50,361 bases of DNA, from the NCBI GenBank assembly GCA_017651465.1, contig JAGCCX010000037.1, positions 1 to 50,361 of the forward strand, given 5' to 3'. A model generated the notes under the pieces. That model was not told the DNA's origin. It was given only the letters and a program-made list of their open reading frames with translations, and did not search any database. Of this stretch, positions 1,068-36,856 are shown one piece after another. Origin of the DNA: Bacteroidales bacterium (lineage in GTDB: Bacteria > Bacteroidota > Bacteroidia > Bacteroidales > UBA932). Position numbers and translations under genes: made by a program. The stretch's first letter is position 1. Each line of letters starts with the position of its first letter.

Positions 1068-3758
1068 TTACTTCTCCCTGCGGGCCGGTAGGGCCTTGAG
1101 CACTATGGCTCCAAGGACTAGGAGCAACAGGAGGATGGAGCTGGCGCGGGAGAGGGCTTCGCCGCGGCGGTAGGAGGCCGGCTCGAAGCTCATAACCAGG
1201 GTGTGCGATCCGGCGGGAAGGTCCACGCAGCGCAGCAGGTCCGAAGCTACGGGCCACTTGGTTATGCGGCGGCAGATATCGTTGATAACCTCTCCCCCGG
1301 CAGGCTGGACACCGGGTTCTATCTCCATCTTACATCCTTCATAAAGCTCAATGGGCAGCTCGGTTCCGTCTTCCAGGCGGGCCACCCATCCTGCAGGATA
1401 ATAGACCTCGCTGAATACCGCGCGGCCGCCTTCGGCAGAAGTATAGCTGTATTCCAGCTTGTCCGGAGCGTAAGAGGTCATCTCTATTGAATCGCTTGTT
1501 TGCTCAAACCAGGCGTTGCCGCGGGCAAAACTATAGCGCAGCGGGGGATTGTCGTCCCCGACGATGATATAGCGGCAGTTAAGCGATGCGAGGCTCTCCA
1601 GATACGGCAACGCGGCCTCGGCCTCCTGCACGGTGGCGGCGCCGCTTATGGCCTTGCTAAGAGTCTGGATATCAGGGGCCAGCTGCCTGTCGATATATTC
1701 CTGATAGCGCTGGAGCTTGGCTGGAGAATATCCGCCGATGTTCTTATGCCAATAGGAGGGGTGAGAGTCGTTGAACACGTTGACCGTAAGGTCCAGCACC
1801 CGGTACGACGGGTCGGGATCGGAGAGAATCAGCTCATCGACGGGACGCTTGTCAAACTGGCTGCTGAACGCCTTGGGAGTCACAAAGTCATCCGGCCCAA
1901 GATAGCGTTTGCCTACGACGAACAGGTCCACCAGCACCAGTACGCCCACGCAACAGGCAGCGATAATTCTCCGGACGTTGATAGGGGTGCGACTGCCGTC
2001 CTGACCGGCCGCGGGAGCTTCGGCGGACGTGCCCCCCGGGCGACTTTGGCCCTTGCGAACAGGAGCAAGGGGGGCGCTTCCGCCGACGGCTTTATCCTTC
2101 GGTACAGCTCCTGATACGCCCCACACCAGCAGGGCCACGGCAGCGGCTACCAGCAGCAGCGACCGCAGGGTGTCGTTCCAAAGCAAAGTATAACGGTCGG
2201 CCGCCAGGGCCTCGCGGAGAATATCCGGCTGCCCCGCATCGGCACCGCCGCTGAACGTTCCCAGCACACTCTGAAGCAGAGCCAGAACGAGCAGCAGCCC
2301 AAGTGAAATGACTCCGCTGACAAGCACCTTCTTGCGAAGTTCGCGGGACGGATCACCGCTCTTGAGCATCCCGTCAAGCATAAGGAATCCCAGCACGGGA
2401 AGGGTAAACTGCAACACCACCAGAGCCATGGACACGGTTCGGAACTTATTGTACAGCGGCGCAATATCGTAGAAGAGCTTGGTAAACCACAGGAAATGGC
2501 TGCCAAGTGCCAGCAGCACCGCAAGGAGCGATGCGGCCACGGCCCACCATTTCTCCCGGCCCTTCCAGTACAGCAGGCCAAGGATAAACAGGAAGATAGT
2601 GACCGCTCCCATATACATAGGGCCTGCGGTGAAAGGTTGGGGTCCCCAGTAGAGGGGTAGATGCTTGCGTACTTGCTGGAGGTTGCCCTGACCGGCGCGC
2701 CGCAGCAGTTGCACGGTCTCGGATTTCATGCTCAGCGGGCCCGAGGAAGAGCCACCGTTGTAATTGGGAATGGCCAGGTTGGGGAGTTCTTCCCATCCGT
2801 ACGACCAGGCGGTGGCGTAATCGATGTCAAGCCCCTTTCTGGCCCCTTCGGACGAGCCGTCGGAGGTGCCGCCGCGCATCGAGTAGGGGGTGTATTCAAA
2901 TGTCGGGAGGAGCTTGATGGCGTTGGTACCTATGCCGGCGAGGCCCATTACGAGGAGCAGGGCAGATGCTATCCAGAAGCCTTTGAGGGACTGTTTGCGG
3001 CGCAGGAGCGACACAAAGAGAACCACTACGTAGATCAGGATCATCAGGGCCAGATAGTAGGATATCTGTGGGTGGTTGGCTTTGACCTGGAAGCTTACGG
3101 CAAGGCCGAACAAGGCGGCGCCGAGAATCGTCCAGGGCCAGCGAGGCCCGGCAGTCGCAGCGGTGGAATCTCCGTCGGCGGAAGTGCTTTCGCTGCGACT
3201 TTGGCCCTTACGAACAGGAGCAGTGGAAGCACTTCTGCCGACAGCAGCACTCCCGCCACAGGCCTTACGGTAAGTAAACACCACGGCGGCAAAAACCCAC
3301 GGCAGGAATGCCAGAGCCTGCATCTTGGTGTTGTGCCCCACCTGAATAATCTGGATATTGTACGAGCAGAACGTGACTGCTATGGCTCCGCCTGCGGCTA
3401 CCAGGGGGTGTACGCCGAAGGCGAGGAACATCAGGAACGCCCCCAGGAGCGATATGAACAGATATGTGGCGGGACGTTTGCCGGTGAGCAGCAGGTCGTA
3501 CAGGGGCTGCGTCCAGTCACCTTTGGTGGAACTCTGGATAGATGCAGTGGGCATACCGCTGAACATGGAGCCGGTCCAGGCCGCGCTCTCTCCCGGATGC
3601 GCCTTGTCCCAGCTGATCTTTTCGTGAGCCATTCCCTGCCAGCCGGAGATATCCCCCTGGTTGACAACCTTCCCCTCCAGCACCTCGGGCACAAATGCGT
3701 ACGAAAGCACCAGGAATCCCAGCACAATACCCAAACATATCAACAGATTCTTCTTCAT
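1068..3758 (-). CDS. YfhO-family polytopic membrane protein with two in-frame palindromic insertions
   Basis: The 896-residue product starts with a hydrophobic anchor (residues 4-22). A soluble stretch follows with GSMFSGMPT, and then many membrane segments. A C-terminal periplasmic-type domain precedes a last membrane helix (about 872-890). This is the layout of YfhO (PF09586), a GT-C-like integral membrane family whose Gram-positive members help glycosylate cell-surface polymers. The Bacteroidota substrate is unknown. Two low-complexity Ser/Thr/Ala-rich stretches, residues about 172-195 and 557-580, each carry the peptide APVRKGQSR. They correspond to hairpin repeats at 3175-3241 and 2020-2086, so they look like inserted nucleic-acid elements tolerated in loops. 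The gene is last in the mutS / phosphatase / glycosyltransferase / CpXC operon, 6 bp after the CpXC gene. Confidence 0.9.
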   Translation of the reverse strand: MKKNLLICLGIVLGFLVLSYAFVPEVLEGKVVNQGDISGWQGMAHEKISWDKAHPGESAAWTGSMFSGMPTASIQSSTKGDWTQPLYDLLLTGKRPATYLFISLLGAFLMFLAFGVHPLVAAGGAIAVTFCSYNIQIIQVGHNTKMQALAFLPWVFAAVVFTYRKACGGSAAVGRSASTAPVRKGQSRSESTSADGDSTAATAGPRWPWTILGAALFGLAVSFQVKANHPQISYYLALMILIYVVVLFVSLLRRKQSLKGFWIASALLLVMGLAGIGTNAIKLLPTFEYTPYSMRGGTSDGSSEGARKGLDIDYATAWSYGWEELPNLAIPNYNGGSSSGPLSMKSETVQLLRRAGQGNLQQVRKHLPLYWGPQPFTAGPMYMGAVTIFLFILGLLYWKGREKWWAVAASLLAVLLALGSHFLWFTKLFYDIAPLYNKFRTVSMALVVLQFTLPVLGFLMLDGMLKSGDPSRELRKKVLVSGVISLGLLLVLALLQSVLGTFSGGADAGQPDILREALAADRYTLLWNDTLRSLLLVAAAVALLVWGVSGAVPKDKAVGGSAPLAPVRKGQSRPGGTSAEAPAAGQDGSRTPINVRRIIAACCVGVLVLVDLFVVGKRYLGPDDFVTPKAFSSQFDKRPVDELILSDPDPSYRVLDLTVNVFNDSHPSYWHKNIGGYSPAKLQRYQEYIDRQLAPDIQTLSKAISGAATVQEAEAALPYLESLASLNCRYIIVGDDNPPLRYSFARGNAWFEQTSDSIEMTSYAPDKLEYSYTSAEGGRAVFSEVYYPAGWVARLEDGTELPIELYEGCKMEIEPGVQPAGGEVINDICRRITKWPVASDLLRCVDLPAGSHTLVMSFEPASYRRGEALSRASSILLLLLVLGAIVLKALPARREK
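2020..2086 (+). repeat. Hairpin repeat family 2, copy 1 (inside yfhO)
   Basis: An 18-bp stem is formed by 2020-2037 and 2069-2086, with one C/T mismatch and one G-T wobble on the plus strand. It encloses the 24-nt core at 2042-2065, which begins GACTTTGGCCCTT and ends CGAACAGGAG. The same core occurs at 3197-3220 and 36795-36818. On the coding (minus) strand it is read in frame as APVRKGQSR. Confidence 0.85.
3175..3241 (+). repeat. Hairpin repeat family 2, copy 2 (inside yfhO)
   Basis: A 22-bp stem (3175-3196 with 3220-3241) has three mismatches, all of which are G-T wobbles on the plus strand. The apical core at 3197-3220 matches copy 1 except for one purine. The outer arm begins TCGGCGGA, as in copy 1, but the inner stem differs. 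It is translated in frame as part of a Ser/Ala-rich loop of YfhO. Confidence 0.85.
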
Positions 3759-9528: not shown

Positions 9529-9581
9529 GCGATTTTTGCCGAATTTGGCAAAACGCGGCCTCTCGCGGCCGCCTCATTGCT

Positions 9582-9663
9582 GTTTGGTGGTTTGAAGATG
9601 TGCGGGCAAACGGCATTCGGGGCCCTTTTTGCCGTTAGGCCACACAATGGACAACCACCAAAC
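9582..9663. repeat. REP-like nested palindrome on the 3' side of the RAYT gene
   Basis: An outer perfect inverted repeat, GTTTGGTGGTT (9582-9592) and AACCACCAAAC (9653-9663), encloses an inner imperfect stem. The inner stem starts with GGGCAAACGGC at 9604-9614 and pairs with GCCGTTAGGCC. Both motifs recur on the other side of the transposase gene. Confidence 0.75.
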
Positions 9664-9668
9664 GACGT

Positions 9669-10523
9669 TTATACTCTGTCAAGCAGGCGAGTGACTTCGA
9701 CATAGGACAGGCCCAGAACCCGGCATATTTGATGGGCGTCGGCACTTAAGCGGCGGCTTAGCTGTTTTACCAAGTCTGTAAGTTCTTCTTCTGCTAAATA
9801 GGTGAAGGACTTTTTAAAATATAGCGTGCGGCATAAATCTTTTGCCGCCTCCAGAACGACTTCATCTTTGAATGATGGAGCAACATTTCCCAGGACCAAC
9901 TTGGCTTTAGAAGAATTATGCAAGAAATACATCATTCTTGAAGGCGTTTTGAAAAGCCTCTGCACAAACTCTATGCATACATACGATTCCGGCAAGACAT
10001 AGCCATCTTCGCTTATTCGCCAGTCCTGAGATAATTTCACATTGCTTTTCAGCAATCGTATCTGCGCGCGGCAGGACAGGTCTCCGAGTCGCTTTCCATA
10101 AGGCCGGTTGTCGTTGAAGAAACAGGCTCCGGTTCCCCATTTATATCCACTCGCCTCCAAGCTTATCCTGGCCGCAACGCTATTCATCTGTATATATGCA
10201 ACCACTCTCTCCAGGGCCTCGTTCTCAAATGTTATTTCTCTGATATCTACTTTATTTCGAGACATAAACCGCTTGGTTCCATATTTTTGGCAGTAGTATT
10301 TACCATATAACGCTTTAAAAGCTGTGATAAACTCCCGAGCCTCGTCTTTGGAGCACAGAAGTAAAAAATGAACGTGATTGGACATCAGGATAAACGATAT
10401 TACTTTTATCTGTTTTGCGAACGAAATGACGGCAACATAATTCATCCCCACAACGTAATCCGATTTATCCCTGAACCATATCTTCCTTTCAAAGTGATCG
10501 GTTGTAATAAAAAAGAATCTCAT
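9669..10523 (-). CDS. REP-associated tyrosine transposase (RAYT, Y1_Tnp/HUH family)
   Basis: The 284-residue protein has the HUH metal-binding motif SNHVHFLLL (His50, His52) and the single catalytic tyrosine in AYIQMNSVAARI (Tyr110), the arrangement of the IS200/IS605-related RAYT proteins. The C-terminal 100 residues are helical and could bind DNA. Such enzymes cut single-stranded REP hairpins and are domesticated relatives of IS200 transposases. The gene is clearly more AT-rich than its neighbours, suggesting horizontal origin. It stands alone between mutS and the YeiH cluster and is flanked by palindromes sharing two motifs, as expected of a self-contained REP/RAYT unit. Its weak TTG/ATG context leaves the exact start uncertain. 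Confidence 0.88.
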   Translation of the reverse strand: MRFFFITTDHFERKIWFRDKSDYVVGMNYVAVISFAKQIKVISFILMSNHVHFLLLCSKDEAREFITAFKALYGKYYCQKYGTKRFMSRNKVDIREITFENEALERVVAYIQMNSVAARISLEASGYKWGTGACFFNDNRPYGKRLGDLSCRAQIRLLKSNVKLSQDWRISEDGYVLPESYVCIEFVQRLFKTPSRMMYFLHNSSKAKLVLGNVAPSFKDEVVLEAAKDLCRTLYFKKSFTYLAEEELTDLVKQLSRRLSADAHQICRVLGLSYVEVTRLLDRV

Positions 10524-10550
10524 AGTGTCTTTTGCTGGTTATATAATGTT

Positions 10551-10611
10551 TGGGCAAACGGCAATAACCGCCGAAAATGCTGTTTGCCCACTCCTGGCAG
10601 AACCACCAAAC
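10551..10611. repeat. REP-like palindrome on the 5' side of the RAYT gene
   Basis: GGGCAAACGGC (10552-10562) pairs with GCTGTTTGCCC (10579-10589), one wobble apart. AACCACCAAAC follows at 10601-10611. The left flank has the same two words in the same orientation. Confidence 0.75.
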
Positions 10612-10650
10612 GGCAGGCGGCCTGATGATTGACCCCAAAACTAAAGCAAA

Positions 10651-27437: not shown

Positions 27438-27556
27438 TATAATAAACTATCGGCTGCAGACTACGGCCTTCGGCCTATCCCTCCCATCGTACCGATGGGC
27501 CCCTCCCACTCACGACTGCGTGGGCGCAGACGGTCTGCAGCCGGTAGTTTATTATG
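27438..27556 (+). repeat. Structured repeat family 1, copy A
   Basis: The closing stem 27438-27461/27533-27556 is 24 bp with two T-G wobbles. Inside are the hairpin GGCC-TTC-GGCC (65-75), the hairpin CCCATCG-TAC-CGATGGG (27484-27499), then CCCCT and an H-type pseudoknot. In the pseudoknot CCCAC (27505-27509) pairs with GTGGG (27520-27524), and CTGC (27516-27519) with GCAG (27526-27529). It lies between the mfd start and the AT-rich box cluster. Confidence 0.85.
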
Positions 27557-27760
27557 TATTGTTAATATAGTTGTTGAAAAGCCTGTTGATAAGAGCGGTA
27601 AGAGTTGTTGATAAAAAAGGTTCTTAAGTTTTTAACAACTGTTTTAGTGCCTCGGTAACAGGGTTTTCAACACTCTTTTAAAGTATAAATCAATGATAAT
27701 CAAGCACCTTTGTTAAAAATTAACAAATTAACAGAGGTTTAAAACATCATCAAATTATAA
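27555..27760. other. Candidate replication origin region (AT-rich, DnaA-box-like cluster)
   Basis: The gap between divergent mfd and ruvB holds TGTTGAAAA (27572-27580), TGTTGATAA (27584-27592 and 27606-27614, 22 bp apart) and TTTTCAACA (27664-27672). The TGTTGATAA boxes differ from the DnaA consensus TGTGGATAA at one base. A very AT-rich stretch follows, with the perfect inverted repeat TTTGTTAA-AAA-TTAACAAA (27709-27727). Gene direction flips here: 21 of 23 genes to the left are minus, while ruvB and most genes to 45.5 kb are plus. Two parS-like sites lie 9 kb to the right. A strong promoter region without origin function is the alternative. Confidence 0.45.
27709..27727. repeat. Perfect AT-rich inverted repeat in the mfd-ruvB gap
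   Basis: TTTGTTAA and TTAACAAA are separated by AAA, with further TTAACA words just after. It could be part of an unwinding element or an operator. Confidence 0.6.
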
Positions 27761-27771
27761 ATTAAAAGAAC

Positions 27772-27779
27772 TATATTTG
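27772..27779 (+). promoter_or_regulatory. -7 promoter element and leader of ruvB
   Basis: TATATTTG is followed by a 21-nt leader that includes AAAGGAG (27787-27793). That is one of the very few purine-rich Shine-Dalgarno-like sequences in this window, 7 nt before the ruvB ATG. Confidence 0.65.
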
Positions 27780-27800
27780 TAATTGTAAAGGAGAATCGAA

Positions 27801-28820
27801 ATGTCTGATTTCAATCCGCACGATACAAGTGAGGGCAAAGATAAGGATTTAGAAGGAATAATCCGTCCCAGGGAGCTGGAAGATTTTACCGGCCAGGGTG
27901 AAATAGTATCCAACCTGAAGATTTTTATCCAGGCGGCCAAGCTGCGCGGCGAACCTCTTGACCATACCCTGTTCCACGGGCCTCCCGGTCTTGGCAAGAC
28001 TACTCTTGCGCATATTATAGCCAACGAGATGGGGGTAAACATGAAGATTACTTCCGGCCCGGTGCTTGACCGTCCCGGCGATCTGGCCGGCCTTCTTACT
28101 TCTCTCGAGCCGGGAGATGTACTCTTTATAGATGAGATTCACCGCTTGTCGCCTGAAGTAGAGGAATACCTTTATTCGGCGATGGAAGATTATGTAATTG
28201 ATATAATGATAGATAAGGGTCCCGGGGCCCGGTCGGTGCGTATATCCCTTAATCCTTTTACGCTTGTGGGTGCTACTACCCGTGCCGGATTGCTTACAGC
28301 TCCGCTGAGGGCCCGCTTCGGCATAAACAGCGGACTGGAGTATTACGATACCGATCAGCTGGTGAAGATAGTCAAACGCAGCGCTCAGATCCTTAAGATT
28401 GGTATCGACGACGATGCCGCGCGCGAGATAGCTCTTCGCAGCCGCGGTACGCCACGTATAGCCAACGGTCTTCTTAGGCGAGTGCGCGACTTTGCCCAGG
28501 TGGTGGGTGACGGACATATCAATTTAAAGATAGCCCGCTATGCCCTTGATAAACTTAATATCGACACCCGAGGGCTGGATGCTATTGATAATAAGATACT
28601 TCGTACTATCATAAGCACTTTCAAGGGAGGTCCCGTGGGCGCTAATACAATAGCCACCGCCATAGGTGAAGATCAGGGCACATTCGAAGAAGTGTACGAG
28701 CCATTCTTGATCAAAGAAGGTTTTATAGTACGTACCCAGCGCGGCCGCATAGCCACCGAACTCTCCTACAAGCACCTCGGCCTGGTCAAGGAACCCGATG
28801 AAGGGAGCTTGTTTGGATGA
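27801..28820 (+). CDS. ruvB: Holliday junction branch migration ATPase RuvB
   Basis: The 339-residue AAA+ motor of the RuvAB complex drives branch migration at Holliday junctions. Walker A is [13 protein letters not shown], Walker [12 protein letters not shown], and sensor/arginine-finger regions [19 protein letters not shown]. The winged-helix end is [17 protein letters not shown]. Its partner ruvA is encoded 8 kb away on the other strand (36857-37450), not adjacent. It is the first plus-strand gene right of the AT-rich gap. A bidirectional terminator hairpin lies 144 bp downstream. Confidence 0.99.
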
Positions 28821-28963
28821 GTTTTTCAGTATTCTGTAGATTGGCCGTGAACTGTATTTGTTTGATAGTCAGCCAGAACAGAAATCGCTATAGTTCTTTT
28901 AATATATAGCAAAGTTGGTTTTAGCTGATTACCAGCACTTTACATTTTACGTTTATAAAAAGA

Positions 28964-28994
28964 GGCCGGGAGTTGTGTCATGTGACCCCCGGCC
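28964..28994. terminator. Bidirectional intrinsic terminator after ruvB
   Basis: GGCCGGG (28964-28970) and CCCGGCC (28988-28994) flank an inner GTCA/TGAC stem, with A-rich sequence before and CTTTTT after. The rest of the 450-bp gap (28821-29271) contains only the hairpin at 29043 and the frdA promoter; I see no gene in it. Confidence 0.8.
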
Positions 28995-29042
28995 CTTTTT
29001 ATCCGTGGCTGCTAACCAACAGTCATTCAATAACTTCCCACA

Positions 29043-29072
29043 TTTGCCTGCATAATTATTCGTGCAGGCAAA
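29043..29072. repeat. Perfect 10-bp inverted repeat in the ruvB-frdA gap
   Basis: TTTGCCTGCA (29043-29052) and TGCAGGCAAA (29063-29072) are separated by 10 AT-rich nt and have no T-run, so this is not a typical terminator. TGTGGATTA, one base from a DnaA box, follows at 29086-29094. It could be an operator for frdAB; no regulator is suggested by the sequence. Confidence 0.6.
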
Positions 29073-29228
29073 GGACGTAAGAAACTGTGGATTAATGATA
29101 TACCCGCCACTGCCACGAGTAGATATCGCCCACTATTTCAACATAACAATTCAGCATCAAGTGTTCCTGCAGACAGAGCAGAGTTAGGCAATTAACGCCG
29201 GCCGTTTGTCCTTGTCAGATTTTTGTTG

Positions 29229-29236
29229 TATCTTCG
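29229..29236 (+). promoter_or_regulatory. Probable promoter of frdAB
   Basis: TATCTTCG (one mismatch to TAnnTTTG) is preceded by TTTG 20 nt upstream, the usual Bacteroidota spacing, and followed by a 35-nt AT-rich leader to the frdA ATG. Confidence 0.55.
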
Positions 29237-29271
29237 CCCTATTATAGAATACCAATTAATTTATAATACAA

Positions 29272-31218
29272 ATGGCCGATAAATTTACTTCAAAGATTCC
29301 CGAGGGGCCTTTGGCGCAGAAATGGACCAAAAGGAAGTCGGAAATTCACTTGGTTAGTCCCAACAACAAACGTAAACTCGAGATTATCGTAGTGGGTACC
29401 GGGCTTGGCGGAGCATCTGCAGCTGCGTCGCTGGGCGAGTTGGGATACAACGTTAAGATATTCTGTATCAGCGACTCTCCGCGCCGTGCACACTCTATTG
29501 CCGCGCAGGGAGGTATTAACGCTGCAAAGAATTACCAGAACGACAACGACTCTGTGTACCGCCTCTTTTACGATACCATCAAGGGAGGTGACTATCGCGC
29601 CCGCGAGGCTAATGTGTATCGTCTGGCCGAGGTGAGCGCCGCTATTATCGACCAATGTGTTGCGCAGGGCATCCCGTTTGCCCGCGAGTACGGCGGATAT
29701 CTGGCCAACCGTTCTTTCGGCGGCGTGCAGGTGAGCCGTACGTTCTATGCCCGCGGTCAAACCGGCCAGCAGCTGCTCCTGGGTGCTTATGCATCGTTGA
29801 ATAAAGAGATTGCAGCAGGCACTGTCAAGTCGTACCCGCGTCACGAGATGCTTGACCTGGTGGTTATAAACGGCGAGGCAAAGGGTATCATTACCCGCAA
29901 CCTGGTGACCGGCCAGCTTGAAAGGTTCGGGGCGCACGCAGTAATCATTGCCACCGGAGGATACGGAAACACTTACTTCCTGTCCACCAACGCTATGAAC
30001 TCCAACGGTTCGGCGGCGCTGCAGTGCTATAAGAAGGGCGCATATTTTGCCAACCCTTGCTTTGCGCAGATCCACCCTACCTGCATACCTGTACACGGCG
30101 ACCAGCAGTGCAAGCTTACCCTTATGAGCGAGAGTCTTCGTAACGACGGCCGTATCTGGGTTCCCAAGAAGCTGGAAGATGTGGAGAAACTCCGCAAGCA
30201 CCAGATCAAGGCCTCGCAGATTCCCGAAGAGGACCGCGACTACTATCTCGAGCGCCGTTATCCGGCCTTCGGTAACCTGGTTCCCCGTGACGTGGCTTCA
30301 CGCGCCGCCAAAGAGAGGTGCGATGCGGGCTTCGGCGTGAACGAGACAGGCCTGGCCGTATTCCTGGACTTTGCCGACGCCATCCAGCGCCTTGGGCATC
30401 AGAAAGTTGCCGAGCGTTACGGAAACCTGTTCGAGATGTACGAGAAGATCACCGCTTCGTCCCCTTGGGAGGAGCCTATGATGATTTATCCCGCCATCCA
30501 CTACACTATGGGCGGTATTTGGGTTGACTACGACCTGCAGACCACCATTCCCGGCCTGTACGCCATCGGCGAGGCCAACTTCTCCGACCACGGCGGCAAC
30601 CGTCTGGGCGCTTCGGCCCTTATGCAGGGCCTGGCCGACGGTTATTTCATCGTTCCCGTTACCATCGGCGACTATCTGTCCAAGAAGTTCGCGGAGCCCA
30701 AGACCGATGTTACCCGTCCCGAGTTTGCCGAGGCCGAGAAGGCCGTCCAGGCACGTATAGACAGGCTTCTTTCCATCAATGGTACCGAGACTGTCGATTC
30801 TATCCACAAGGAACTCGGACACATTATGTGGGAGTATGTGGGTATGGCGCGCGAGAAGGCGGGACTTGAGAAGGCAATCGAACTTATCAAGAACCTGCGC
30901 CAGCGTTTCTATGAGAACGTCAAGGTGCCCGGCACCCAGTTCGAGTTCAACCAGGAGCTGGAGAAGGCCCTGAGGCTTGAAGATTTCTTTGATATAGGCG
31001 AACTTATGGCGCGCGACGCCCTTAACCGCAACGAGTCTTGCGGCGGCCACTTCCGCGTGGAGAGCCAGACCGAAGAGGGCGAGGCCAAGAGGGACGATGC
31101 CAACTATATGTATGTGGCGGCTTGGGAATACAAGGGCGAGGGCGTAGAGCCTGAGCTGCACAAGGAACCGCTTGTTTACGAGAACATTAAGGTTATTACC
31201 AGAAATTACAAAGACTAA
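29272..31218 (+). CDS. frdA: Fumarate reductase/succinate dehydrogenase flavoprotein subunit
   Basis: The 648-residue protein has the N-terminal FAD-binding loop [15 protein letters not shown], then [15 protein letters not shown] with the His that binds FAD covalently. [34 protein letters not shown] and the capping-domain substrate residues follow. [13 protein letters not shown] and [22 protein letters not shown] lie near 410-460. The longer type matches the b558-linked enzymes of Bacteroidota and Wolinella, which reduce fumarate with menaquinol in fermentation to succinate and propionate. The iron-sulfur subunit gene follows after 1 bp. The cytochrome b subunit gene that normally precedes frdA in Bacteroides is not present upstream. 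Confidence 0.97.
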
Positions 31219-31219
31219 T

Positions 31220-31999
31220 ATGGAATTCAATTTAAAGATTTGGCGTCAGAAGAACGCCAAGGCAAAGGGCCATTTCGAAACATATCATATTTCTGGTATA
31301 GAGGAAGATGCGTCCTTCCTTGAGATGCTTGATATCCTTAACGAGCAGCTTATCCGCGAGGGCTGTGACCCTGTGGCGGTGGAGCGCGGCTGCAAGAGCA
31401 GCGGTCCGGTATCGTTCGACCACGACTGCCGTGAGGGTATATGCGGCGCTTGCTCGCTGTACATCGACGGGCGCGCCCATGGTCCGGACGACCACGTGAC
31501 TACCTGCCAGCTGTTTATGCGTCATTTTAAGGACGGAGCCACCATTACGGTGGAGCCCTGGAGAAGCGCCGCATTCCCGGTTATCAAGGATCTTGTGGTG
31601 GATCGTACTGCATTTGACAAGATTCTTCAGGCCGGCGGCTTTATATCGGTGCGCACAGGAGCGGCACAGGACGCCAACAATATCCTCATTCCTCACGACA
31701 GGGCCGAGGAGAGTATGGATGCTGCCGCTTGCGTTGGTTGCGGCGCCTGTGTTGCTACTTGTAAGAACGGCTCCGCCATGCTGTTTGTGGCCGCGCGTGT
31801 AAGCTCTTTGGCTCTTCTGCCCCAGGGCCGTCCCGAGGCCAAGCGCAGGGCCAAGGCTATGGTGGCCAAGATGGATGAGTTGGGCTTTGGTAACTGCACC
31901 AACACGCGTGCGTGCGAACTGGAGTGCCCTAAGGGTATTACCGTGGCTCACATCGCCCGCCTGAACAGGGAGTTCTTGAAGGCTAAGTTCTCTGACTAA
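31220..31999 (+). CDS. frdB: Fumarate reductase/succinate dehydrogenase iron-sulfur subunit
   Basis: The 259-residue protein begins [12 protein letters not shown]. It has the plant-ferredoxin [2Fe-2S] ligands in [16 protein letters not shown] ... TTC, and a C-terminal bacterial-ferredoxin domain with [11 protein letters not shown] and [14 protein letters not shown] for the [4Fe-4S] and [3Fe-4S] clusters. It conducts electrons between the membrane quinol subunit and FrdA. The frame is open upstream to 31172, inside frdA, but the ATG at 31220 begins family similarity and lies 1 bp after the frdA stop. The structured repeat copy C begins 6 bp after its stop and may act as the transcript end. Confidence 0.97.
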
Positions 32000-32005
32000 C
32001 TTTTA

Positions 32006-32116
32006 GCTGACGCTGCTACTGTTCTTGGGATGTCGCTTCGCGACCCTTCCCTAAAGGGCCCCTCCCTCTTCCGGTGCCGAGGGTGGCACGATCCCAAGAA
32101 CAGTAGCAGCGTCAGC
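32006..32116 (+). repeat. Structured repeat family 1, copy C
   Basis: A perfect 26-bp closing stem is formed by 32006-32031 and 32091-32116. The first hairpin is GTCGC-TTC-GCGAC (32032-32044) and the second CCCT-AA-AGGG (32049-32058), followed by CCCCT. In the pseudoknot, CCCTC (32064-32068) pairs with GAGGG (32079-32083) and GTGCC (32074-32078) with GGCAC (32085-32089). It fills the gap between the convergent ends of frdB and hflX. Confidence 0.85.
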
Positions 32117-32123
32117 CAAGAAT

Positions 32124-33296
32124 CTACCAGAGGAAATTATTGAACGGCCAGCGGCCTGCGTGAATTTCCGCGACCATTTTGTAAAGGTCACTGCGGAGTT
32201 TGGGCAGGCCGTTGCGGCTTAATGCTGACATAAAGATGCACGGGACCTTCTTTTCGTCGATCCATTTGTGCTTCAGATCGTCCAGAGTGCGATTCTGCTT
32301 ACCCTTCGGGACGAGCGAGAAGGGGTCGTATTCCTCGTACTCGTAAGCATCTGTTTTATTGAAGATTACGTACTGCGGCTTGTCCCCTGCCCCTATCTCG
32401 TCGAGGGTCTTTTGGACAACTTCCATCTGTTCTTCGAAGTCGGGGGCGGATACATCTACGACGTGTACCAGCACATCGGCCTCGCGCACTTCGTCGAGCG
32501 TGCTTTTGAACGCCTCGATGAGCTGGGTGGGGAGTTTGCGTATGAATCCTACAGTGTCGCTGAGCAGGAAGGGGCAGTTTTCGATGACGACTTTGCGGAC
32601 GGTGGTGTCGAGCGTGGCGAAGAGTTTGTTTTCGGCGAATACGGTCGATTTGCTCAGCAGGTTCATCAGGGTGCTCTTGCCTACGTTGGTGTAGCCTACG
32701 AGCGAGAGACGCACCAGGCTTCCCCTGTTGCCGCGCTGGGTGGCCATCTGTTTATCGACCTTTTTCAGTTGCTCTTTGAGGCGCGCAATGCGCTCGCGGA
32801 CGATGCGGCGGTCAACCTCGATCTGGCTTTCGCCCATTCCTCCGCGGGTTCCAATGCCGCCCCGCTGGCGCTCGAGGTGGGTCCACATACCGGCCAGGCG
32901 CGGGAGCATATAGTTGTAGCGGGCCAGTTCTACCTGCATTTTGGCGTAGGATGTTTGGGCGCGCTGGGAGAATATTTCGAGGATGAGGCTTGTGCGGTCG
33001 ATGACGGACGAGGTTTTGATGACTTTCTCGACGTTGCGTTGCTGCATTGCCGTGAGTTCGTCGTCGAAGATGACGTATTTTATTTCGTTTTCTTCGCAGT
33101 ATGCGGCTATTTCGTCGAGTTTGCCGCTGCGTATGTATGTGGCTTTCTCGGGTTTGTCCAGCTTTTGGACAAACTTGCGGTCTCCGGCCACGCCGGCGGT
33201 GTCGGCCAGGAATTCCAGCTCGTCAAGGTACTCTTTTACCTTTCTCTCGTCTTCGCCCTGGCGGATTATTCCTACAAATACAGCTCTTTCTTCCAT
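32124..33296 (-). CDS. hflX: Ribosome-associated GTPase HflX
   Basis: The 390-residue protein has the N-terminal HflX subdomain (IRSGKLDEIAAY, VIFDDELTAMQQRNVE, VIDRTSLILEIFSQRAQTSYAKMQVELARYNYMLPRL). A glycine-rich RGGIGTRGGMGE hinge with a coiled coil follows. The G domain has G1 GYTNVGKSTL, G2/G3 DTTVRK and LSDTVGF, and G4 NKTD. HflX splits stalled or hibernating ribosomes after heat stress. The ATG at 33296 is followed by a typical MEERAVFVGI. The gene is boxed in by two structured repeats: copy C after its stop and copy B 14 bp before its start. Confidence 0.97.
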   Translation of the reverse strand: MEERAVFVGIIRQGEDERKVKEYLDELEFLADTAGVAGDRKFVQKLDKPEKATYIRSGKLDEIAAYCEENEIKYVIFDDELTAMQQRNVEKVIKTSSVIDRTSLILEIFSQRAQTSYAKMQVELARYNYMLPRLAGMWTHLERQRGGIGTRGGMGESQIEVDRRIVRERIARLKEQLKKVDKQMATQRGNRGSLVRLSLVGYTNVGKSTLMNLLSKSTVFAENKLFATLDTTVRKVVIENCPFLLSDTVGFIRKLPTQLIEAFKSTLDEVREADVLVHVVDVSAPDFEEQMEVVQKTLDEIGAGDKPQYVIFNKTDAYEYEEYDPFSLVPKGKQNRTLDDLKHKWIDEKKVPCIFMSALSRNGLPKLRSDLYKMVAEIHAGRWPFNNFLW

Positions 33297-33309
33297 ATAT
33301 TATTGGTTT

Positions 33310-33440
33310 GAAAACGGCCGGATGCTAGTGGCAGACTACGGCCTTCGGCCTATCCCTCCCGCAAGCCCTGCGCTTGCGGGCCCCTCCCACTCACGGCTGC
33401 GTGGGCGCAGACGGTCTGCCGCTAGTATCCGGCCGTTTTC
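33310..33440 (+). repeat. Structured repeat family 1, copy B
   Basis: A 27-bp closing stem (33310-33336 with 33414-33440) has two G-T wobbles. The first hairpin is identical to copy A. The second is CCCGCAAGC-CCTGC-GCTTGCGGG (33358-33380), unrelated in sequence to that of copy A but fully paired. In the pseudoknot CCCAC (33386-33390) pairs with GTGGG (33401-33405), and CTGC (33397-33400) with GCAG (33407-33410). It lies between tonB and hflX. Confidence 0.85.
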
Positions 33441-33461
33441 AATCATTATTCATCGAAAAAA

Positions 33462-33482
33462 GGCCATCCGTGATGGACAGCC
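33462..33482. terminator. Intrinsic terminator of tonB
   Basis: GGC..TCC and GGA..GCC pair around GTGAT with an internal CA/CA mismatch. On the minus strand TTTTTTCG follows. It is 23 bp after the tonB stop. Confidence 0.65.
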
Positions 33483-33504
33483 TTTATAGGGTTAAGGTGT
33501 GTGT

Positions 33505-34194
33505 TTATCTCAGCTGGAAGATAACAGGGAAGGTGTAAGTCACCTTGACCTTGCGGTCGCGCTGCTTGCCGGGGGTCCACTTGGGAGACTGAGAAACAAC
33601 GCGGACGGCCTCCTTGTCAAGTGAGGGGTCAACACCACGGAGCACCTTTACGCCGGAAACGCTGCCGTCGGTACCCACGGTGAACTGAAGCATCACGCGG
33701 CCCTGTACTCCGTTCTCTTTGGCAACCTCGGGATAAACGAGCCTCTGGTTAACCCACTTGGAGAATTCGTTGGCGTCGCCGCCCATGAATTTGGGCTTCT
33801 CTTCAACGAGTTGGAACGGAATGGTTTCCTCTTCTACTACCTCTTCTTTAACCTCTTCTACGTAGTCCTGAATTTCAACACCAAGGCTGGAATCGTCCTC
33901 GAGGTTGATGATATTATCGTTGACTTTGATGTCGTCGTCGATAATGTCGATCTGGTCCGAAAGGATAGGAACCTTAGCGAGCTCGGGCGGCGGGGGAGGA
34001 GTCTCCTGGGTGATAGGAATGATTTCTTCTTCAATAAGTTCTTTGTTCTCTGCCAGCAGGCCGGAGTCTGCCTTCTCCTTGCTGCTCCACTCGAAGGCGA
34101 AGAGCACGGCCAGGAGAGCGACAACAAATCCAATTTCGACAAACAGCAGACGCTTATTTTCGAGACTGGCCTTTTGTGATTTCTTAACTTCCAT
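33505..34194 (-). CDS. tonB: TonB energy transducer
   Basis: The 229-residue protein has a short basic cytoplasmic start, one membrane helix (about 17-34) and a Pro/Glu-rich periplasmic spacer (ETPPPPPELAKVP, then long acidic stretches). The C-terminal TonB domain (about 150-229) has YPEVAKENGVQGRVMLQFTVGTDGSVSGVKVLRGVDPSLDKEAVRVV. It couples the proton gradient, through ExbBD, to outer-membrane SusC/TonB-dependent receptors. No exbB or exbD is adjacent. It has its own promoter region and terminator, so it is a single-gene unit divergent from ybeY. Confidence 0.95.
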   Translation of the reverse strand: MEVKKSQKASLENKRLLFVEIGFVVALLAVLFAFEWSSKEKADSGLLAENKELIEEEIIPITQETPPPPPELAKVPILSDQIDIIDDDIKVNDNIINLEDDSSLGVEIQDYVEEVKEEVVEEETIPFQLVEEKPKFMGGDANEFSKWVNQRLVYPEVAKENGVQGRVMLQFTVGTDGSVSGVKVLRGVDPSLDKEAVRVVSQSPKWTPGKQRDRKVKVTYTFPVIFQLR

Positions 34195-34224
34195 ATCTAG
34201 TGTTATTTTATTTCGTTCAAGCGG

Positions 34225-34232
34225 TAAAGATA
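34225..34232 (-). promoter_or_regulatory. Probable -7 promoter element of tonB
   Basis: The minus strand reads TATCTTTA (one mismatch), with a TTG 20 nt upstream as -33 element and a 30-nt leader to the ATG at 34194. Confidence 0.5.
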
Positions 34233-34264
34233 TGAATTATTAATTTCAATTCCAATTTTTGTTG

Positions 34265-34272
34265 TAGATTTG
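34265..34272 (+). promoter_or_regulatory. -7 promoter element of ybeY-mnmG
   Basis: TAGATTTG lies 23 nt before the ybeY ATG at 34296, divergent from the tonB promoter. Confidence 0.6.
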
Positions 34273-34295
34273 CGGCGATTTTTGACCGCACGCAA

Positions 34296-34721
34296 ATGGT
34301 ACGATACTATTTTGAGGATATTGAATACAAGTACACGGAACGGCGTTTCACCAACGCCTGGCTCCGTAGGGTGGCTCAGCAGGAACAATGCCAACTAGGT
34401 GACATCAATATTATTTTCTGCTCAGATACGTATCTATTGGGCATTAACTTGCAATTTTTAGGCCACGACTACTATACAGACATCATTACATTCGATTATT
34501 CCGAGAAGCCCGTGCTCTCCGGAGACCTCTTTATAAGTATCGACTCTGTAAGGGAAAATGCGGCTTTTTACGGAGCCTCTTTTGATGAGGAGTTGCACCG
34601 GGTCATAGTTCACGGCCTGCTTCACCTCATAGGTTACGACGATCATACCGAGGCGGATCAAGCCGTTATGCGATCAATGGAGAACAAAAGTCTTGAACTC
34701 CGGCGCGAGATGAAGGGATAG
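34296..34721 (+). CDS. ybeY: Endoribonuclease YbeY
   Basis: The 141-residue UPF0054 metalloprotein is needed for 16S rRNA 3' maturation and ribosome quality control. The zinc motif reads [12 protein letters not shown] (His106, His110, His117). The last His is one residue further than in the common H-x3-H-x5-H pattern, or an Asp takes that place, as variants at this ligand occur in Bacteroidota. The upstream strand DIITFDYSE also fits. The mnmG ATG follows 2 bp after its stop, so the two RNA-processing genes form an operon. Confidence 0.94.
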
Positions 34722-34723
34722 TT

Positions 34724-36610
34724 ATGAGCGAGAGCTATGATGTGATTGTGGTTGGCGGCGGACACGCCGGTTGTGAGGCTGCGATGGCGGCCTCGGGACT
34801 TGGCGCGAGTGTGCTGCTGCTCACGATGGACGCGCTCTCGTTTGCCAAAATGAGCTGTAATCCTGCCATAGGCGGCATAGCTAAAGGCCAGATAGTCAGA
34901 GAGATAGATGCGCTTGGCGGGTTTTCGGGGCTGGTTACCGATGCTGCTACTCTGCAGTTCCGGATGCTTAATAAATCGAAGGGTCCCGCTATGTGGAGCC
35001 CCAGGGCGCAGTGCGATAAAATCAGGTTTTCGCTGATATGGAGGGAGTTTCTTGTAAATCGCTGTGGCTTAAGTATTTACGAAGATACGGCAGAATCTTT
35101 CCTCTTTGAGAATTCAAAAATTTGCGGCGTGCGTACGCTTGGAGGGCAGATTTTTAAGTGTAGGACGCTTATTTTGACCGCCGGGACCTTCCTTTCGGGG
35201 CGTTTGTTCGTCGGGCGGAGGCAGTTGGTCGGCGGCCGCATCGGAGAGCGGAGCGCCGATCGTCTCACAGAGCAGTTGGTCGAACGAGGCATTACTACCG
35301 GGCGGATGAAGACCGGCACTCCCCCGCGAATCGACATTACTTCTGTTGATACGTCGGTGCTTTCACGCCAGAAGGGGGATGACGGGCCCGAGCGCTTTTC
35401 TTATTTGGATGTTCCTTCTCGGGTCCAGAAGATTGGTGAGCAGATGGATTGTTTTATCCTTCACACCAACGAAGAAGTTCACCGGCGCCTGCGCGAGGGA
35501 TTCGATGACTCCCCTCTTTTTACCGGCGTTATTCACGGCAGAGGACCTCGGTATTGTCCGAGCATCGAGGATAAACTCCGCGTGTTCCCTGAGAATGATG
35601 CACATCAGCTTTTCTTGGAGCCGGAGGGCTTTGGCACAAATGAGTATTATCTTCAGGGCTTTTCTTCCTCGCTGCCCTTTGATGTTCAGATGAATGCCCT
35701 TCGCGCTATTCCTGGGCTCGCTAATGTTCGTGTGTTCCGCCCTGCGTATGCTGTGGAATATGATTATTTCGACCCTTCGCTGCTTAAAGCGACGCTGGAA
35801 TCGCGTGTCGTTGACGGGTTGTATCTGGCGGGACAGGTGAACGGTACTACCGGTTATGAAGAAGCAGCGGCCCAAGGCCTTATTGCCGGAATCAATGCGG
35901 CGCTGGCGGTTTCCGGCAGGGATCCGTTCGTGCTCTCGAGGGATGAGGCTTATATCGGAGTCCTCATTGACGATTTAATTACCAAGGGAGTTGATGAGCC
36001 GTACCGGATGTTTACGTCGCGTGCGGAGTATCGTATTCTGCTTCGCCAGGATAATGCGGACCAACGGCTTACTGAACGCTCCCATGCTATTGGATTGGCT
36101 ACTGAAGAACGCTATTCCCGTATGATGCGGAAGTACGATTCCGCCCGGCGTTTGACCGAACTCTGCGAGTCCAGCAAGCTTACCGCTGCGGCGTCTAATG
36201 AGTTCTTGAGATTGAATGGTTCTGCTGAGCTGACAGAATCGAAGCGTCTTTCTGATGTTGCAACTCGGCCCGAGCTTTCTTTGGCCGATATTCTTGGACT
36301 TGTTCCACGTGGAACATTTGCCAAATTTGGCCTCGACGGATTGCCGGAGCGAGAGGTGGTAGATTCGGTCGAAATTAATCTTAAATATAAAGGATATATT
36401 CAGCGCGAACGCTTGCAGGTCGATAAGCAGCGACGTCTCGAGTCGCTCGAGATTCCAGAGAACTTTGATTTTGATAAGCTCAACGGACTTACTATCGAGT
36501 GTCGTCAGAAGTTTAAACGCTACGCTCCGCGCACCATCGGTCAGGCCTCGCGCATATCCGGAGTCTCCCCTGCCGACATTTCTGTGCTTTTAGTTTATTT
36601 CGGCCGCTAA
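34724..36610 (+). CDS. mnmG: tRNA uridine-5-carboxymethylaminomethyl enzyme MnmG (GidA)
   Basis: The 628-residue protein is of normal MnmG length. The FAD-binding motif [17 protein letters not shown] is at the N-terminus, followed by [28 protein letters not shown], and [23 protein letters not shown]. The C-terminal helical domain ends with [13 protein letters not shown] and [14 protein letters not shown]. With MnmE it modifies the wobble uridine of several tRNAs, using FAD and methylene-tetrahydrofolate. A perfect parS-like palindrome (36301-36316) is embedded in its codons (VPRGTF) and a second lies 1 bp after its stop. mnmG is next to the origin in many bacteria. Confidence 0.98.
36301..36316. 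promoter_or_regulatory. ParB-binding parS-like site 1 (inside mnmG)
   Basis: TGTTCCACGTGGAACA is a perfect 16-bp palindrome. The widely conserved parS consensus is TGTTNCACGTGNAACA, so every fixed base matches. It is located within the mnmG coding sequence. ParA and ParB genes are not in this window. Confidence 0.8.
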
Positions 36611-36611
36611 T

Positions 36612-36627
36612 TGTTCCACGTGGAACG
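36612..36627. promoter_or_regulatory. ParB-binding parS-like site 2 (after mnmG)
   Basis: TGTTCCACGTGGAACG matches site 1 at 15 of 16 positions and begins 1 bp after the mnmG stop. The 311-bp spacing to site 1 fits a small parS cluster. Confidence 0.78.
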
Positions 36628-36632
36628 CTTAA

Positions 36633-36753
36633 GCAGCATCGGCTGTCTAACCAGAAACCTCGCTTCGCTCGTCCCTCCCAGCCTTCGGCCGGGCCCCTCC
36701 CGTTCACGTGGCCACGGGCGGCCACGGTTTCTTGCCTAGACAGCCGATGCTGC
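36633..36753 (+). repeat. Structured repeat family 1, copy D
   Basis: The closing stem has 17 bp (36633-36649/36737-36753), an internal loop, and 7 bp more (36653-36659/36726-36732). The first hairpin is weak but keeps the GCTTCGC loop. The second is CCC-A-GCC-TTC-GGC-C-GGG (36677-36693), followed by CCCCT. In the pseudoknot CCCGT (36699-36703) pairs with ACGGG (36714-36718), and CGTGGCC (36707-36713) with GGCCACG (36720-36726). It lies between the convergent ends of mnmG and ruvA. Confidence 0.82.
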
Positions 36754-36773
36754 CGATGTTCCTGCATATTATA

Positions 36774-36838
36774 AGCGGGACAGCATTCACAACTGACTTT
36801 GGCCCTTACGAACAGGAGGTTGTGGATGCTGTCCCGCT
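36774..36838 (+). repeat. Hairpin repeat family 2, copy 3 (intergenic)
   Basis: A 20-bp stem (36774-36793 with 36819-36838) has one T-G wobble and an apical loop containing the same 24-nt core (36795-36818) as the two copies in yfhO. Stem sequence is unrelated to the other copies. It sits 18 bp before the ruvA stop, where it could also serve as the transcript end of ruvA, although no clear T-run follows on that strand. Confidence 0.85.
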
Positions 36839-36856
36839 AAAAAAGTATCCAGGCTG

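Follow-up and report, generated by a model that had tools for sequence, protein, structure and literature searches.

The 50,361-nucleotide stretch of DNA analysed here, called the window (positions 1 to 50,361 of contig JAGCCX010000037.1, assembly GCA_017651465.1, from a Bacteroidales bacterium of GTDB lineage UBA932), carries four copies of an element of about 120 bp that represents a family of palindromic, mobile repeats which is new as far as the open-access literature searched goes. The family is of the same broad kind as the repetitive extragenic palindromes (REPs) and the Rickettsia palindromic elements (RPEs), but its design is reversed: the core is conserved and pseudoknotted, the ends change, and the fold is DNA-like. 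Judged from the sequences compared, the element is a mobile palindrome: it has been amplified, its site occupancy differs between species, and arm, core and arm were inserted as one unit. The genome to which the window belongs, 2.5 Mb in 85 contigs, is referred to as the own genome; other genomes and stretches of DNA are given by G and L numbers.

Each element consists of two arms, mostly of 20-35 bp, that enclose a core mostly 55-80 nt long. The core comprises a hairpin H1, the linker CCCT, a second hairpin H2 (CCC..GGG), the linker CCCCT, and then S1a, a loop, S2a, S1b, one base and S2b, where S1 and S2 form the pseudoknot. The four window copies are hairpins of this design with arms of 23-29 bp, listed below with their scores against our covariance model, R1.

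Copy A, 27439..27555, plus strand: arms 27439-27461 and 27533-27555 (23 bp); H1 27465-27475; H2 27483-27499; S1 27505-27509/27520-27524; S2 27516-27519/27526-27529; 80.7 bits.
Copy C, 32006..32116, plus strand: arms 32006-32031 and 32091-32116 (26 bp, perfect); H1 32032-32044; H2 32049-32058; CCCCT 32059-32063; S1 32064-32068/32079-32083 (5' strand set by eye); S2 32074-32078/32085-32089; 53.1 bits.
Copy B, 33308..33442, plus strand: arms 33308-33336 and 33414-33442 (29 bp); H1 33340-33350; H2 33358-33380; S1 33386-33390/33401-33405; S2 33397-33400/33407-33410; 77.3 bits; site empty in L061.
Copy D, 36633..36753, plus strand: arms 36633-36659 and 36727-36753 (3' arm taken, by eye, to begin after S2); H1 36661-36667; H2 36677-36693; S1 36699-36703/36714-36718; S2 36707-36713/36720-36726; 84.1 bits.

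The four copies, the order of their parts and the one base separating the 3' strands of the pseudoknot had been described in a first-pass annotation of the window, and all were confirmed, with boundaries refined by at most 2 nt. The annotation also held that the copies share only a C-rich skeleton. This fails for copies A and B, whose cores differ at one base outside H2, so that H1, S1 and S2 are identical in the two; their H2 and their arms do differ, the arms being alike for the innermost six bases only. As RNA, the copies gave folding z-scores of -8.7 (A), -9.7 (B), -9.65 (C) and -5.65 (D), with 0 of 200 shuffles as good. The surrounding reading frames are divergent at A, convergent at C and D, and on the same strand at B.

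The paired fold of the element is not due to chance. In 28 copies from the own genome, the 14 pairs of H2, S1 and S2 were paired in 96.4% of cells, against 77.5% after shuffling, and the covariation score was 0.49 (0.14 shuffled; at most 0.09 in slid registers). The covarying pseudoknot proposed from the window copies was supported in a larger, independent set of 103 distinct copies from other genomes. These were found with R1, which includes the pairs of H2 and S2 and excludes those of S1, leaving S1 outside the model that fetched them. Paired cells made up 99.0% in S1, 99.0% in S2 and 92.2% in H2, and covariation, counted with kinship ignored, reached 0.425, as compared to 0.094 for shuffled copies and at most 0.061 for slid registers, with two-sided changes in S1 and S2. 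Two S2 pairs present all four Watson-Crick types; three of the five S1 pairs, one of the four S2 pairs and three of the five H2 pairs are invariant and hence uninformative. The annotation had left it that the fold is selected or generated, and that choice still stands for the outer arms, which are perhaps kept palindromic by template switching.

Variants of this architecture also occur. Long versions, read by eye, carry an extra structured module of about 50-90 nt, which either lies in the pseudoknot loop L1 (L002, L012, L294, L296, L298 and L302-L304) or replaces the single base of L3 (L317, L325 and L327). At an intergenic site matching that of copy C, L066 has a shorter hairpin with a perfect 24-bp stem and a core like H1-CCCT-H2 that lacks the pseudoknot, perhaps a reduced form of the element.

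Arms were scored symmetrically in 156 copies that remained after strict parsing and removal of duplicates. The score was at least 14 in 135 of them, with a median arm length of 27 bp, and mixed left and right flanks (up to 300 draws) reached at most 13.5. The arm cells of these 135 copies (n = 3945) comprised 3597 Watson-Crick pairs, 36 G.T and 55 A.C mispairs, a further 178 mispairs of other types, and 79 gaps. Arm sequences are unlike between copies of older subfamilies and common within recent bursts, where they drift in pairs: in the G080 burst (19 stretches, 17 units parsed), the variants GTCTATTAC/GTAATAGAC, GTCTGTCAA/TTGACAGAC and GTATGTCAA/TTGACATAC occur side by side. One chimeric copy, L311, combines the left arm of one type with the right arm of another (compare L312 and L314), which suggests recombination between copies. 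The composition of the outer flanks revealed no motif, and no fixed-length target-site duplication stood out beside the arms of the 135 copies; direct repeats of at least 5 nt were found there in 8.1% (4.4% for shuffled flanks) and of at least 7 nt in 2.2% (0.3%).

The four copies counted in the first-pass annotation are a small part of the total. In the own genome, the pattern CCCTCCCN{3,30}GGGCCCCTCCC gave 37 matches, with 0 for the reversed control, and R1 gave 50. All 42 occurrences of GGGCCCCTCCC in this assembly fall inside the 50 matches, some copies ending at contig ends; thus no half-element there points to a version bearing an open reading frame (ORF), and no such autonomous version was seen in the assembly. 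Within the family, 61 of the 199 genomes sampled, from 11 of 25 genera, contained the exact pattern, with up to 45 copies and 0 matches for reversed controls. Across the order it occurred in five of 295 genomes: the own genome, G005, which shares its family, and three from three other families. Each of 25 hand-picked related genomes had at least one model match. The named relatives at the hflX locus are mostly Bacteroidales metagenome-assembled genomes from rumen or gut, two being Candidatus Cryptobacteroides. Rfam release 15 gave 0 matches in the window at gathering thresholds, 0 for copy A at E values up to 1, and 0 in seven loci with long or other versions. The annotation had asked for a wider search and knew of no named RNA class of this design; many more copies were found in the own and related genomes, and none of the outcomes that it had named beforehand as refuting (an Rfam match, no further copies, no covariation in a larger set) occurred.

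A phage or plasmid vector was set aside, as copy A had no plasmid match, copy D had no phage match, and the viral-contig loci that were read differ. These came from a scan by pattern that gave at least 80 loci, of which 13 were read by eye; because the loci were chosen by pattern, their model scores are biased. All 13 held a different GC-rich family or single look-alikes. On viral contigs L501, L463, L533, L477 and L480, a GC-rich hairpin arranged as CCCTCACCCTCCC-hairpin-GGGCCCCTCCCTCTCCC-hairpin is repeated between adjoining genes of a cluster that by eye is phage-like or like a gene-transfer agent. It has CCCT and CCCCT linkers in common with the Bacteroidales element, a likeness that need not reflect homology.

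Evidence for mobility comes from empty sites, from copies inside genes and from inversions in place. The region around copy B is contiguous in L061, with the element absent, and none of 40 hflX loci of relatives had a copy at E values up to 1 in the stretch covered. Many copies lie inside long reading frames, in either orientation; these were chosen for an open frame, and frame-breaking copies are left out of the count. By NCBIfam and Pfam matches, their hosts include TilS, PrmC, RsmE, TrmB, FolC, a PcrA/UvrD-type helicase, HemW (in G199) and an EamA-family transporter. In TilS, PrmC, RsmE and FolC the domain matches are split into two stretches, as expected of insertion. When the flanks of nine in-gene copies were joined and used as queries, six relatives were matched, and six of the nine queries had at least one match running across the junction. 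Protein alignments of eight genes provided clean element-free relatives for five (the RlmI-like gene, PrmC, TilS, TrmB and the EamA-type transporter), and in these the 8-10 residues encoded by an arm are not native. Residue spacing allows at most about three native arm residues, as could be the case in the RlmI-like gene, so that arms and core arrived together. The alignments of RsmE, the PcrA-type gene and L165 gave no clean empty site, and the ninth query, L160, had no match. At protein sites occupied by the element in the own genome, some relatives carry different inserted peptides (L220 and L227 in PrmC, L204 and L208 in the RlmI-like gene, L224 in the PcrA-type gene), so that several repeat families may favour these loops as hot spots of insertion.

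We also compared nine orthologous occupied sites between species. In the trio L247/L250/L252 an unusual H2 is kept, the arms differ, and H1 differs by paired changes. In four site sets the core is inverted relative to the flanks; the arms are plainly the same in two, similar in the third and different in the fourth. In the inversion between L248 and L279, arm polymorphisms change sides together with the core. The set with different arms, L271 as compared to L278 and L039, may reflect separate insertions. Species-specific bursts with covarying arms were observed in G080 and G103. Arms derived from the target by snap-back copying of the flank were rejected, both by the five genes in which comparison with relatives shows a complete arm to be foreign and by these two bursts, in which the arms travel with the element.

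The fold of the core is DNA-like in several respects. The variable S1 and S2 pairs of copies from other genomes included two G.U in 523 cells, and the 28 own copies included two U.G, both in one S2 pair. At the fourth H2 pair, 39 of the 103 distinct copies were non-standard or unpaired, and across 106 rows the two variable H2 pairs gave 40 A.C and no G.T; an A.C mispair is G.T on the complementary strand. On that strand, the H1 loops are GNA in 41 of 50 triloops and GNNA in four of 17 tetraloops (74 of 137 distinct H1 parsed, at stem lengths of 4 or more), and the H2 loops are GNA in 19 of 34 triloops and GNNA in 11 of 40 tetraloops (83 of 106 parsed). The same loop classes on the strand folded in the first-pass annotation gave GNA or GNNA 0-1 times each. 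Loops of the GNA and GNNA type on G-C stems are described as giving DNA mini-hairpins of extraordinary stability (PMC4686876). A title cited in PMC2984261 names d(cGNNAg), d(cCNNGg) and d(gCNNGc) as stable DNA tetraloops. The orientation of the element to neighbouring genes is not fixed.

On these comparisons, we think it probable that the element is a non-autonomous mobile palindromic repeat whose preserved fold is that of single-stranded DNA (ssDNA), on the strand complementary to the one first folded. When the lagging-strand template becomes single-stranded, the arms would close and the core would form two mini-hairpins and the pseudoknot. An enzyme supplied in trans would recognise this shape, not the sequence of the arms, and would cut and join at the arm foot. 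The arms could then drift freely, because only pairing would matter in them, and template switching, by correcting the palindrome, may be what keeps them perfect. The mover would most likely be a Y1/HUH transposase of the REP-associated type, of which these genomes have many copies. HUH transposition, unlike DDE transposition, is not known to make target duplications, and the lack of a clear target-site duplication is as expected of the former. A more tentative suggestion, possible rather than probable, is that the core is a natural, evolutionarily conserved ssDNA pseudoknot in which the transposition signal is the shape of the DNA (two mini-hairpins, often with GNA or GNNA loops, and the pseudoknot, all closed by an arm free to change), so that each copy may have different ends. 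We found no description of a mobile element with a shape-recognised ssDNA pseudoknot in the open-access literature searched. If true, covariation, the standard evidence of functional RNA, can also stem from folded ssDNA; the strand of wobble pairs, loop motifs and orientation would be ways to tell an RNA fold from a DNA fold, and the pseudoknot would join the known shapes of mobile DNA. Moreover, housekeeping enzymes of this lineage have gained about forty extra residues on many occasions, which makes the lineage a natural test of how proteins tolerate insertion.

Genes for REP-associated tyrosine transposases (RAYTs) or their like are numerous in the family, with up to 15 matches per genome, and each of two RAYT models, A3 and A4, matched 22 of 24 copy-bearing genomes. 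Six RAYT stretches also hold a copy of the element (L359, L365, L431, L434, L435 and L453). In L359, from the own genome, two copies lie upstream of the RAYT gene (2127-3119), at distances of about 460 and 800 bp, and a third, in the opposite orientation, lies 1.6 kb downstream with another frame in between; in L365 a copy lies 2.9 kb from the gene. The window itself has one candidate gene:

9669..10523, minus strand: divergent REP-associated (Y1/HUH) transposase gene; 21.9 bits, below the Pfam cut-off, and 31.4 bits with REP_Tyr_transpos, whose cut-off is 80.

This RAYT-like gene sits between two copies of a structured hairpin of its own (window 9540-10640, GCAAACGGC and CCACCAAACGGC motifs). 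With flanking hairpins of its own that differ from the element, it is a candidate only for the type of enzyme that could move such elements.

A number of observations weigh against the favoured reading. Clear arms are missing from 21 of the 156 parsed copies, and the covariation scores are counts over sequences that share descent. DNA-type H2 loops are a minority (30 of the 83 parsed), and the strand asymmetry of arm mispairs is weak (55 A.C against 36 G.T, p 0.06). Orientation relative to GC skew, 57:38, gives no significant replication-strand bias (p 0.06). Of the 156 cores, 150 had the lower folding energy on the complementary strand, but this was true after shuffling as well, and we dropped this asymmetry as evidence because it is an effect of composition. 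As to the mover, many of the RAYT genes examined lie between two like hairpins of their own, not this element, and in none of them is the element the immediate flank on both sides. Two copy-bearing genomes, G005 (99% complete, six pattern copies) and G216 (28 model matches in a 1 Mb assembly), had no match to the RAYT models, and PF01797 was found in nine of 11 copy-rich genomes but also in seven of 12 pattern-zero genomes. The RAYT stretches, which overlap and total 274 kb, contained copies at four distinct sites, a density not above the own genome's 50 in 2.5 Mb. By comparison, the reverse transcriptase family PF00078 was found in nine of 23 genomes, namely seven of 11 copy-rich and two of 12 pattern-zero ones. 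It is missing from four genomes with many copies (the own genome, G052, G215 and G199), and by eye its loci hold a common chromosomal gene of about 410 aa or diversity-generating loci, with one copy about 0.2-0.3 kb from the gene in G080. Weak model matches within reverse transcriptase genes (E 0.6 to 4) were taken as noise, and this enzyme was set aside as mover for want of linkage, though not disproved. A Y1/HUH (RAYT) enzyme is thus our guess at the likeliest type of mover, a candidate type with none tied to the element.

The closest rival to the favoured reading is a REP/RAYT (TnpA_REP) system proper, in which one of the RAYT genes of these genomes is the dedicated partner. The abundance of divergent, often hairpin-flanked RAYT-like genes, the copies upstream and downstream of the gene in L359 and the lack of a clear target duplication speak for it. 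So does subclass 2.6 of TnpA_REP in Bacteroidetes, whose flanks are described as "atypical secondary structures" that also occur at other places in the genome (PMC6006769). We nevertheless consider it rather unlikely, given that no examined RAYT gene is immediately flanked on both sides, that copy density near RAYT genes is not raised, that G005 and G216 had no RAYT matches, and that a universal GTAG tag is missing, its complement CTAC standing beside H1 in seven of the 28 copies of alignment A2. Far less credible is a miniature inverted-repeat transposable element (MITE) of an ordinary DDE insertion sequence, with the arms as terminal inverted repeats. Its size, want of an ORF, inverted ends and mobility would fit, as would the slight excess of direct repeats of at least 7 nt. 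However, terminal sequences are unlike between copies although a DDE transposase would need them, the figures for repeats of at least 5 nt amount to no clear target duplication, and the own assembly has no orphan half-element able to flank a transposase.

Two further alternatives concern the fold itself. Selection might be absent from the arms, and perhaps from H2, if template switching at a cruciform kept them complementary; covariation would then be generated by mutation, and the core spread by copying or gene conversion. Near-perfect arms without an excess of wobble pairs are consistent with this, as are the wholesale replacement of arms around a lasting core in the trio L247/L250/L252, compensatory changes as complete pairs between L242 and L276, and the L248/L279 inversion, in which the arms changed sides together with the core. 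It fits the favoured reading for the arms, but does not account for linkers (CCCT and CCCCT) that never vary, for a pseudoknot of fixed geometry, for the motifs in the loops or for copies at new sites, and as a full account we regard it as improbable. A structured non-coding RNA, to which the first-pass annotation had leaned, would be transcribed, act in cis or trans as a pseudoknotted RNA, and owe its copies to duplication. Conserved linkers together with covarying helices, nested as well as pseudoknotted, usually point to a selected RNA, and the RNA folding z-scores are extreme. Yet orientation is inconsistent among window copies A-D and among in-gene copies, cores have been inverted in place between species, G.U pairs are few both in the variable S1 and S2 cells of other genomes and in the own copies, the loops match DNA motifs on the opposite strand, and Rfam has no match. 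We therefore moved away from that leaning and hold an RNA to be slightly more improbable still.

The favoured mobile ssDNA palindrome can be placed among known systems. REPs are palindromes of 20-40 bp with a GTAG or CGTC tag (PMC3733652; PMC6006769). Like REPs and their compounds (REPINs) with RAYTs, the element is palindromic, non-coding, genome-wide and sometimes in frame within genes, in hosts rich in RAYT-like genes. In REPs the palindrome of 20-40 bp is conserved, whereas here the arms vary and a pseudoknotted core is conserved; a universal GTAG tag and a RAYT gene immediately flanked on both sides are also wanting. RPEs are palindromes of about 100-150 bp that lie in frame in conserved protein genes, and the element likewise lies in frame inside such genes and elsewhere. 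We know of no RPE family with a conserved pseudoknotted core and freely changing arms; the two are compared here by description. RPEs are mentioned in PMC3733652, which also lists bacterial MITEs such as NEMIS, ERIC and Bcr1. The element resembles bacterial MITEs in being short and non-autonomous, with inverted ends and strong folds. MITEs keep their terminal repeats, whereas the element keeps its middle. In IS200/IS605, Y1/HUH enzymes recognise folded single-stranded ends and are not known to make a target duplication; unlike these, the element is one hairpin, with no internal transposase gene and no subterminal hairpin pair. The coding palindromes of Nematomorpha mitochondria, long perfect inverted repeats in protein genes, differ in that they are, as presented there, not a repeat family and have both arms encoding conserved protein sequence (PMC6649704).

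A second palindrome family was observed in the window at 2020-2090, 3175-3245 and 36769-36843. It has a conserved 24-nt loop, GACTTTGGCCCTTRCGAACAGGAG, and differing paired arms. Two of these copies lie within an 896-aa frame (1068-3758) with no Pfam match, and the third adjoins copy D.

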